A stretch of DNA of 53,837 nucleotides. Origin: Oligoflexia bacterium (GTDB lineage: Bacteria; Bdellovibrionota; Bdellovibrionia; JABDDW01). Under the pieces are notes generated by a model that searched no databases, was not told where the DNA came from, and saw only the letters and a list, made by a program, of their open reading frames with translations. The translations under genes and the position numbers were made by a program. Where the stretch lies: positions 131,093 through 184,929 of the forward strand of contig JAWXAT010000031.1 in the NCBI GenBank assembly GCA_034439615.1. Direction: 5' to 3'. Of this stretch, positions 12,096-18,092 are shown piece by piece; position 1 is the stretch's first letter; each line of letters begins with the position of its first letter.

Positions 12096-12124
12096 TTGAC
12101 GTGCCGCAAAAACAGCTGTAATTA
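12096..12124 (+). promoter_or_regulatory. Putative sigma-70-type promoter of the histone gene
   Basis: TTGACG (12096-12101), a 17-base spacer and TAATTA (12119-12124) give a near-consensus promoter reading toward the histone gene, with a predicted leader of about 78 bases. A second, weaker pair (TTGAAT 12150-12155, TCTAAT 12173-12178) lies closer. Seen by eye only. Confidence 0.45.
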
Positions 12125-12208
12125 ATTGTAGTGGGTTTATAGAATTAACTTGAATCAATAACACAACGCTTTTCTAATTATTTAACTTCACCTTGAGGAG
12201 AAAAACCA

Positions 12209-12403
12209 ATGGCAGACGTATTAGTCGTAACCAGTAAAGTAAAAAAGTATATTAAAGAAAAGGGCGATTGCAACACCAGCTCTGAGACAATCGATATCTT
12301 AAGCAAAGCAGTAGAGCGTCTTTGTGAAAAAGGTATGGAGCATGCAAAAAATGATGGCCGCAAAACCGTAATGGCGCGCGATATCATCATCGATCACATT
12401 TAA
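12209..12403 (+). CDS. Bacterial histone-fold protein (Bdellovibrio-type)
   Basis: This 64-residue protein is a single histone fold: a first helix (VTSKVKKYIKEKG), the long central helix (SSETIDILSKAVERLCEKGMEHAKNDG) and the signature RKTVMARDI leading into the last helix. The RKT-V-x-RD motif matches archaeal and bacterial histones. Closest in kind is the small histone described from Bdellovibrio bacteriovorus (Bd0055, HBb), an abundant chromatin protein reported to bind DNA unlike archaeal nucleosomal histones. It likely acts as a dimer on chromosomal DNA. GAGGAG lies 8 bases before the ATG, a near-consensus promoter lies upstream and a strong terminator downstream, so it is a monocistronic, probably highly expressed gene. 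Confidence 0.92.
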   Translation: MADVLVVTSKVKKYIKEKGDCNTSSETIDILSKAVERLCEKGMEHAKNDGRKTVMARDIIIDHI

Positions 12404-12432: not shown

Positions 12433-12472
12433 AAGGCACTATTTGCTTAGGTAAGTATGTGCCTTTTCTTTT
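12433..12472 (+). terminator. Intrinsic terminator after the histone gene
   Basis: AAGGCAC (12433-12439) pairs with GTGCCTT (12459-12465) around a 19-base loop, and the run TTTTCTTTT follows. It ends the histone transcript. Confidence 0.8.
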
Positions 12473-12480
12473 GTCTAAAA

Positions 12481-12984
12481 TTATCGAGGCATAGTTGGTG
12501 GAGCAATTGGTGGCGGTGCATCGTCTGAGTTTGGTCCTGGCGCAGTTGTTTTGGAGTCGTCTGTAGTGGGTGTTTCTGCATTATCTGATGAAGAATTTGC
12601 AGGCGCTGCGGGTGATGATTGTGGTTGAGTTGCTCTTGGTGTTTCTTTAATCACAAATCGAAGTGGGTCTTGTTTACATTTATAAGAACCATCACGCAAA
12701 ATGGTGCATCGATCAGAAGCAAGTGCATCGGCAGTAACGGTAGAGCTAAGTGTTTTTGGTCGCTCGCTCAGACGATAGGCGATACATTCTTTAAGCCTTT
12801 CATTCTTGTCACAATATAATCGTTTTTTCTTTAGACACAGATCGTATTTTAAAACCTCTGTAGGAATAGACATATCAATTGGGCGTTTGCAAATCGGTAT
12901 GGTGGCAGTACTTGGTTTGGTTTCAGCGAAGGCTGAATTCATCATAGAAAATATAATCAGATATACGAAAGTCCACATTGGCAT
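12481..12984 (-). CDS. Secreted or periplasmic hypothetical protein, proline-rich tail
   Basis: The product (about 167 residues) starts with a hydrophobic leader ending NSAFA before ETKPS, a plausible signal-peptidase I site. The mature part has six cysteines spread over residues about 30-105 (for example CKRP, DLCLKKKRLYCDKNERLKEC, RCTILRDGSYKC), suggesting disulfides. A low-complexity Pro/Ser/Thr/Asp tail ends PPPIAPPTMPR. The ATG at 12984 is used. Another ATG 6 bases later has better spacing to the AAGGAAG ribosome site, and an upstream TTG at 13023 is possible. No family recognised. It is transcribed toward the histone terminator region and is divergent from the TPR gene at 13064. Confidence 0.6.
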   Translation of the reverse strand: MPMWTFVYLIIFSMMNSAFAETKPSTATIPICKRPIDMSIPTEVLKYDLCLKKKRLYCDKNERLKECIAYRLSERPKTLSSTVTADALASDRCTILRDGSYKCKQDPLRFVIKETPRATQPQSSPAAPANSSSDNAETPTTDDSKTTAPGPNSDDAPPPIAPPTMPR

Positions 12985-13063
12985 CTTCCTTAGAGCATGG
13001 TCGAGCTCACTTAGTTCTGTCAACGGCCTTGTCTGAAAGGGCCATTACCGTTAGCCTAATAGT

Positions 13064-16162
<3,099 letters not shown>

Positions 16163-16318
16163 TTATATTTAATCCACATTTCCCACACATTACACCGCGC
16201 GTTAAAAGCAGAAGGTGATTGATTAGATCTCTGTTTTCTTCTAGTTTCTAGTGTTCGTTTTTAAAACAAGTGCGTCGATTACAAAAAGTAACGGCGTACC
16301 TAATTGGAGGTTTTTTGT

Positions 16319-16603
16319 ATGTCGTTGTCCGAAGAAACAATTAAAAAAATTGCTGATTTGGCGCGGTTAGAGCTTACTCCAGAAGAGCACACCCTTTATT
16401 CAAAACAACTTACAGCAATTGTTGATTTCATTTCGCAATTATCAAAAGTAAACACTGATGGCGTAGCCCCGCTTGTAACACCCACTGAAATGGCGCAATC
16501 ATTTCGCGAAGATGTTGTGGGAAAAGGTTTTGAACCCGGCGCCGCTACAAGCAATGCACCCCAAAATTCTGGAAACCTCTACAAAGTGCCGCCCGTTTTA
16601 TAA
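16319..16603 (+). CDS. gatC: Aspartyl/glutamyl-tRNA amidotransferase subunit C
   Basis: GatC (94 residues) wraps around and stabilises GatA in the GatCAB complex that converts Glu-tRNA(Gln) and Asp-tRNA(Asn) to the amidated forms. The N-terminal MSLSEETIKKIADLARLELTPEE is typical, as is the FREDV segment near residue 65. The ATG at 16319 is preceded by GGAGG; an upstream in-frame start at 16304 would overlap this ribosome site. It is the first gene of a run that continues with gatA 25 bases downstream. Confidence 0.95.
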   Translation: MSLSEETIKKIADLARLELTPEEHTLYSKQLTAIVDFISQLSKVNTDGVAPLVTPTEMAQSFREDVVGKGFEPGAATSNAPQNSGNLYKVPPVL

Positions 16604-16628
16604 GAAATCGAATTAAGGAGTATAAGAA

Positions 16629-18092
16629 GTGGATTTGAGTGAATTAACAATTAAATCTTTACGCGACAAAGTTCGAAGTGGCGAAATCAAAGCGCGAGCT
16701 GTGGTTGAAGACTCACTTAAAAGAGCCAAAGACACACAAGGTAAGCTTAACGCCTTTATTACGATTTGTGAAAAAGAAGCGCTCCTTCGTGCTGATCAAA
16801 TAGATAAAACAGTAAGTTCAAAAAAAGATCCGGGTGCACTCGCGGGAGTTTGTGTCGCCGTAAAAGATCTACTTCTCACTAAAGGTGTTAAAACAACGGC
16901 TGCATCAAAAATATTAGCAGATTTTATTCCCCCCTATTCTTCAACTGTTGTTGAAAAACTTGAAGCTGCTGGTGCGATCATAATTGGAAAAACAAATCTT
17001 GATGAGTTTGCTATGGGTGCGAGTAACGAAAACTCAGCATTTGGCCCTGTGAAAAACCCCTGGGATCTAACTCGTGTGCCTGGTGGGTCAAGCGGTGGTT
17101 CTGCAGCAGCTGTTGCTGCACGCATTGCTCCAGCCTCTATTGGCACAGACACGGGCGGAAGTATTCGTGAGCCCGCAAGTTTTTGTGGAGTAGTTGGAAT
17201 AAAACCAACCTATGGAAGAGTATCACGCTACGGTGTTGTGGCTTTTGCGTCGTCACTTGATCAAGTCGGGCCCATGGCTCAAAATGTTGAAGACGCCGCA
17301 TTAATGCTTGAGGTGATCTCAGGAAAAGACAAACACGATTCCACATCAGCAGATGTTTTGGTTCCTGCGTTTAGCGAAAAAATTATCGATAATATGAAAG
17401 GCCTTAAAGTTGGTCTTCCAAAAGAATATTTTGTAGATGGAATTGAACCTGAAGTTCGTAAAGCTGTTGATCAGGCGGTGAGTGTTTTAAAAGCTCAAGG
17501 TGCAGAAGTGGTTGAGGTTTCTTTGCCACTTACTGAATATGGAATCGCAGTTTATTATTTAATAGCACCTTGTGAGGCAAGCTCAAATCTTGCTCGTTAT
17601 GACGGCGTACGATTTGGTCATCGCACATCAGAGGCAAAAGATATTCATGAGCTTTACAGGCGCTCACGTGGTGAAGGTTTTGGAGCAGAGCCAAAGCGTC
17701 GGATTATGCTTGGCACTTATGCACTATCAAGTGGGTACTATGATGCGTATTACAAAAAGGCCTGTCAGGTACGAAGACTTATTCGCGATGATTTTTTAAA
17801 AGCATTTTCAAAATGCGATGTAATTGCAACACCCGTTGCAACAGGCCCCGCATTTAAATTAGGTGAAAAAGCCACTGATCCACTGGCCATGTATCTCAAT
17901 GACGTTTTTACTTTAAGCCCATCACTTGCGGGTATCCCCGGTTTAAGTGTGAATTGTGGTTTTACAAAAGAAGGTCTTCCAATCGGTTTGCAGCTTTTAA
18001 GTAAACACTTTGATGAAGAAAAGATCATTCGCGCCGCTTATACGGTTGAAAAACATTCTGGCTTGCCCGTAAGGAGACCCCATGGCTTTTGA
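16629..18092 (+). CDS. gatA: Aspartyl/glutamyl-tRNA amidotransferase subunit A
   Basis: GatA is the glutaminase subunit, an amidase-signature enzyme that releases ammonia from glutamine for GatB. The Ser-cisSer-Lys triad is visible: Lys79 in VCVAVKDLLLT, the cis-serine in PGGSSGGSAAA (154) and the nucleophile Ser178 in TDTGGSIREPAS, the same numbering as in well-studied GatA proteins. Length is 487. The start is GTG with GGAG upstream (AAGGAGTATAAGAAGTG). Its end overlaps gatB by 11 bases, consistent with translational coupling. Confidence 0.97.
   Translation: MDLSELTIKSLRDKVRSGEIKARAVVEDSLKRAKDTQGKLNAFITICEKEALLRADQIDKTVSSKKDPGALAGVCVAVKDLLLTKGVKTTAASKILADFIPPYSSTVVEKLEAAGAIIIGKTNLDEFAMGASNENSAFGPVKNPWDLTRVPGGSSGGSAAAVAARIAPASIGTDTGGSIREPASFCGVVGIKPTYGRVSRYGVVAFASSLDQVGPMAQNVEDAALMLEVISGKDKHDSTSADVLVPAFSEKIIDNMKGLKVGLPKEYFVDGIEPEVRKAVDQAVSVLKAQGAEVVEVSLPLTEYGIAVYYLIAPCEASSNLARYDGVRFGHRTSEAKDIHELYRRSRGEGFGAEPKRRIMLGTYALSSGYYDAYYKKACQVRRLIRDDFLKAFSKCDVIATPVATGPAFKLGEKATDPLAMYLNDVFTLSPSLAGIPGLSVNCGFTKEGLPIGLQLLSKHFDEEKIIRAAYTVEKHSGLPVRRPHGF

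Follow-up and report, generated by a model that had tools for sequence, protein, structure and literature searches.

An orthologue of the Bdellovibrio histone HBb at a conserved locus beside ligA in a Bdellovibrionia genome

The window analyzed here, a stretch of 53,837 nucleotides, belongs to a genome of 3.0 Mb (70 contigs, 96% complete) whose nearest relatives are MAGs of the class Bdellovibrionia. Its relevant features are collected in Table 1. The gene under study starts with ATG and encodes a protein of 64 aa containing RKTVMARDI (MADVLVVTSKVKKYIKEKGDCNTSSETIDILSKAVERLCEKGMEHAKNDGRKTVMARDIIIDHI); on this point the sequence and the list of ORFs bore out the original prediction. The ORF is a real coding gene, because phmmer matched its product to the histone HBb with an E value of 3.2e-28 and the orthologues share its start residue across the class. 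The predicted GAGGAG ribosome-binding site could be read directly from the sequence, and the predicted terminator also proved genuine. Its hairpin (12433-12465), followed by TTTTCTTTTG, gave -17.8 kcal/mol when folded with its flanks (z -3.7), with 1 of 200 shuffles equally good, and a hairpin plus T-run was found within 110 nt of the stop codon in 59 of 81 histone orthologue loci. This hairpin was not listed by a simple terminator scan, probably because its long stem is bulged. The proposed near-consensus promoter, on the other hand, was no better than chance. The best σ70-like match, TTGACG-15-TGTAAT, agreed at 10/12 positions with a short spacer and was equalled in score by 10% of shuffles; when the spacer was 16-18 bp, the best match reached 9/12 and was equalled by 36%. 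A consensus promoter scan of the + strand 5' of the gene found none, and by-eye comparison of the 5' regions of ten orthologues revealed nothing in common beyond the ribosome-binding site. The gene 5' of the histone gene (11163 to at most 12164) is divergently oriented, which makes a separate promoter for the histone gene likely. With a convergent gene (12481-13023) on the 3' side as well, the histone gene is most probably a single transcription unit.

Table 1. Features of the histone locus and its conserved neighbourhood
Feature	Position	Strand	Basis
Best σ70-like match, TTGACG-15-TGTAAT, not above chance	12096..12122	+	Shuffle test
GAGGAG ribosome-binding site	12195..12200	+	Read from sequence, 8 nt 5' of ATG
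HBb-type (bacterial dimer, α3-truncated) histone gene, 64 aa	12209..12403	+	ORF, phmmer, Pfam, AF2 and Foldseek
Intrinsic terminator, hairpin 12433-12465 then T-rich tract	12433..12475	+	RNA fold
ligA (NAD-dependent DNA ligase), conserved convergent neighbour in class	14030..16159	-	Pfam
gatC-gatA (gatC 16304-16603, gatA 16629-18092), next conserved neighbours	16304..18092	+	Synteny

The identification of the product as a Bd0055-type bacterial histone was right by four routes, namely phmmer, the orthologues, the ligA locus and Foldseek. Against PDB sequences, phmmer gave HBb first (8fvx, E 3.2e-28; 8cmp, E 3.6e-28), and the next relatives had E values of 6e-6 or weaker. Identity to HBb/Bd0055 of Bdellovibrio bacteriovorus was 78% (50/64) over the whole length. 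Pfam returned PF00808 at its cut-off (21.4 bits), and no NCBIfam model reached its cut-off for this protein. The AF2 monomer model (pLDDT 88) contained a helix at residues 2-19, another at 25-48 and a third, of one turn, at 56-58, and each of the five Foldseek matches below 0.001 was to an HBb chain (E 2.5e-6 to 1.2e-5). Because the model was built as a monomer, with the orthologue being dimeric, and deviates from HBb by an rmsd of 2.4-3.0 Å, it backs the fold and says little about the dimer.

The protein shares with HBb (PDB 8CMP, 8FVX, 8FW7, 9EZZ, 9F0E) its length of 64 aa, the fold, the compared side-chain DNA contacts, the R51-D58 clamp and C39, and the two genes share the ligA-convergent locus and the terminator. 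It differs by 14 substitutions, among them M21C, A25S, L40E, S45H and A48N. The roles of the contact and clamp residues were taken from HBb (PMC11317129). In the alignment with Bd0055, the compared side-chain contacts were all kept: T8, S9, K10, K12, K16, N22, T23, S24, K52, T53 and R57 are present and near-invariant in 80 distinct orthologues, as are D49 and the R51-D58 clamp. The A25 of HBb is replaced by Ser, a residue found at this site in 23 of the 80 orthologues.

We considered which group of histones the protein belongs to. The truncated α3 (3-4 residues) and short α2 were found in the AF2 model (α2 25-48, α3 56-58), and the RKT...D motif (RKTVMARD, 51-58) is accompanied by the α1 lysines K10, K12 and K16. 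Face-to-face histones are defined by an R48/N52 dimer-dimer pair (PMC11390915), which is absent here, the aligned sites being H45 and D49; the residues for face-to-face tetramer formation are thus missing. The face-to-face histone HLp of Leptospira perolatii (PDB 9QT0) has a similar α3-truncated fold and DNA-binding loop, but it forms tetramers and wraps DNA (PMC12701072), and it was a far weaker match (phmmer E 4.9e-5 versus 3.2e-28 for HBb). The archaeal nucleosomal histones HMfA and HMfB have the histone fold and RKT...D motif in common with the protein (Foldseek E about 0.05-0.15 with the AF2 model), whereas their longer α2 and α3 and tetramer interface (PMC11317129) set them apart. ZZ histones are distinguished by a zinc-finger domain at the N terminus; none is encoded here, as the ORF is 64 aa long with just 4 open codons 5' of the ATG, although in relatives the longer histones have a C-terminal histone domain about 33-56% identical to the protein. 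A low-expressed ZZ histone has been reported in B. bacteriovorus, presumably Bd3044, and the histone search found no longer (ZZ-like) histone in the source genome. On sequence, monomer-model fold and locus, the protein groups with HBb in the bacterial dimer histones (α3 family, HBb type).

The gene is widely conserved. Of 99 relatives in Bdellovibrionia, 93 have a full-length orthologue scoring at least 78 bits, and in a wider phylum sample 164 of 192 genomes gave a match of some kind at an E value no higher than 1e-5, a count that takes in longer, probably ZZ-type, and other histones. Of 80 orthologue loci fetched, 75, including that of B. bacteriovorus kdesi (L073), have ligA in convergent orientation on the 3' side of the histone gene, and gatC and gatA, names which we assigned by recognizing the sequences rather than by family search, were found in 60 and 53 of the 80 loci. 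Unlike the HBb locus, the present one has two extra genes before ligA (12481-14035). The first (12481-13023) encodes a small protein that no Pfam family matched and the second a TPR protein, and besides the present genome this pair was found only in the two genomes of the same family. A mobile origin of the histone gene was rejected, given that phage and plasmid collections held no match and the synteny is conserved. The HBb histone is an inherited, near-universal and syntenic core gene of Bdellovibrionia, and results obtained with HBb should therefore carry over to uncultured relatives in the class. The gene studied here is ordinary for its class, being an orthologue of a characterized protein, and adds no new mechanism. 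Among the 99 relatives, one genome (G075; 92% complete, 2.0 Mb) was the sole one without a histone match at E 0.01; HU-family genes are present, and either histone loss or an assembly gap is possible. Two genomes of 1.5-1.6 Mb (G063, G092) carry diverged orthologues beside ligA (L146:5004-5204, +; L147:4700-4894, -) which have DKLKT... in place of the GRKTVMARD signature and RD clamp. HU-family genes remain in these genomes, and a change of function of the diverged orthologues is possible.

It is highly probable that the protein, as an HBb/Bd0055 orthologue, acts as a dimeric, sequence-independent DNA-bending nucleoid protein. This reading draws on the sequence, monomer-model fold, contact residues, synteny and terminator of the present gene, and borrows the dimer, DNA binding, bending and nucleoid role from HBb, for which crystal structures with and without DNA have been published. 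The product is predicted to adopt a short histone fold of α1, α2 and a one-turn α3 and, by analogy, would form a head-to-tail homodimer. The dimer would bind the DNA backbone at minor grooves with no sequence preference, through the α1 helix (T8-S9-K10, K12, K16) and through paired L1-L2 loops, in which N22-T23-S24 of one chain would act with K52-T53-R57 of the other. DNA would thereby be bent and the nucleoid compacted jointly with HU/IHF-type proteins. The net charge (K+R-D-E) of only +1, versus +2 for HBb, and the average-like codon usage described below count against this reading. The published accounts of HBb itself are at odds, with one describing the coating of straight DNA (PMC10627809) and the other bending (PMC11317129). 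In the model that Hocher et al. proposed for Bd0055, the protein binds end-on and coats straight DNA as a sheath, with no bending. PMC10627809 describes this mode for the very orthologue of our protein, whose contact residues are all identical. However, bending was reported on the basis of a second crystal form together with solution data and simulation (PMC11317129) and was adopted in PMC12701072, and we consider the sheath mode unlikely. The bending mode is kept as the preferred reading.

The original prediction had singled out Cys at residues 21 and 39 as differences that might matter for dimer contacts or redox. The positions were correct. However, HBb itself also has C39, as do 77 of 80 distinct orthologues, and Cys is the commonest residue at site 21 (48/80), followed by Met (25/80), the rest being Phe, Tyr, Leu or other, in a tally where one or two rows were shifted by one residue through an indel. 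Neither cysteine is therefore special to this protein. The near-invariance of C39, the frequency of C21 and the position of C39 next to L38, a dimer-interface residue of HBb, would suit a redox switch altering dimer contacts. Residue 21 nevertheless appears to be under no thiol-specific constraint, since a large minority of orthologues, that of B. bacteriovorus among them, have Met at this site and others have Phe, Tyr or Leu, and the thiols of a cytosolic protein are expected to be reduced. No such switch has been reported for HBb, though it has C39, and the main text of two HBb papers held no cysteine, disulfide or redox role, the one match being a mass-spectrometry setting. We regard a redox switch as extremely improbable; a redox role for C39 by itself is conceivable but unsupported.

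A second stand-alone histone gene is present in the source genome (G000:C33:36816-36980; L002 1498-1692, -), encoding 64 aa (MAKKGGGGPALVVQSKVKAFIKKNKMNCASDVVKGLTSLVEHHLSKAVVRAKSNGRKTVRAGDL). Where face-to-face histones carry their tetramer pair, it has R and N (R....N before GRKTVR). Its AF2 model (pLDDT 80, with low confidence at the N-terminal residues 1-7) was closest to HLp of Leptospira, but its best PDB sequence match was HBb (E 9.7e-7 versus 2.1e-5 for HLp), so that a face-to-face (HLp-type) class is suggested for it.

By analogy with Bd0055, which ranks 12 of 2,125 proteins in abundance in strain HD100 (PMC10627809), it is plausible, and fairly drawn, that the protein would be a major chromatin protein in the source organism. 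Codon usage was examined by the log-likelihood ratio (LLR) of ribosomal over average codons, with each genome's own ribosomal genes as the reference. The B. bacteriovorus (kdesi) histone, whose protein is identical to HBb of the PDB entry, served as the positive control and scored 24.05, beyond all average-like draws and in line with the high abundance of Bd0055 in HD100. The gene studied here lacked this strong bias, with an LLR of -1.19 against 1.61 ± 1.81 expected for a ribosomal-like gene and -1.64 ± 1.79 for an average one. Its codons are average-like, yet 6% of ribosomal-like draws scored as low. The source genome shows little difference between ribosomal and average usage, which makes the test weak there, and with this low power codon usage neither supports nor refutes high expression. 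In two same-family genomes the histone LLR was 8.81 (strong) and 1.03 (weak).

The second histone, in comparison, was ribosomal-like, with an LLR of 2.41 that 1.6% of average-like draws reached, and its CAI was 0.670 versus 0.588 for the HBb orthologue. These values, together with four HU/IHF-family genes in the genome, raise the question of whether the HBb orthologue is now a minor nucleoid protein, with the second, face-to-face-like histone or HU proteins packing most of the DNA. The weak separation of ribosomal from average usage, with the proportion of low-scoring ribosomal-like draws given above, argues against this, as do the tight conservation of the protein, the same as elsewhere, and the histone codons of the two nearest relatives, which lean ribosomal. 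The second histone is, moreover, patchy in the class. We judge such a minor role decidedly unlikely, and more doubtful still is a shift of labour among histones in the source family, in which the ancestral HBb gene would be weakly expressed and a face-to-face-type histone would be the main packager. Some other Bdellovibrionia carry genes akin to the second histone, many of them with N-terminal tails rich in lysine, although PMC11390915 gives Bacteriovoracia as the class of this phylum in which face-to-face histones predominate. At six loci of other Bdellovibrionia (L114, L115, L117, L118, L119 and L120), the second histones carry long N-terminal tails rich in Lys, Arg, Thr and Ala.
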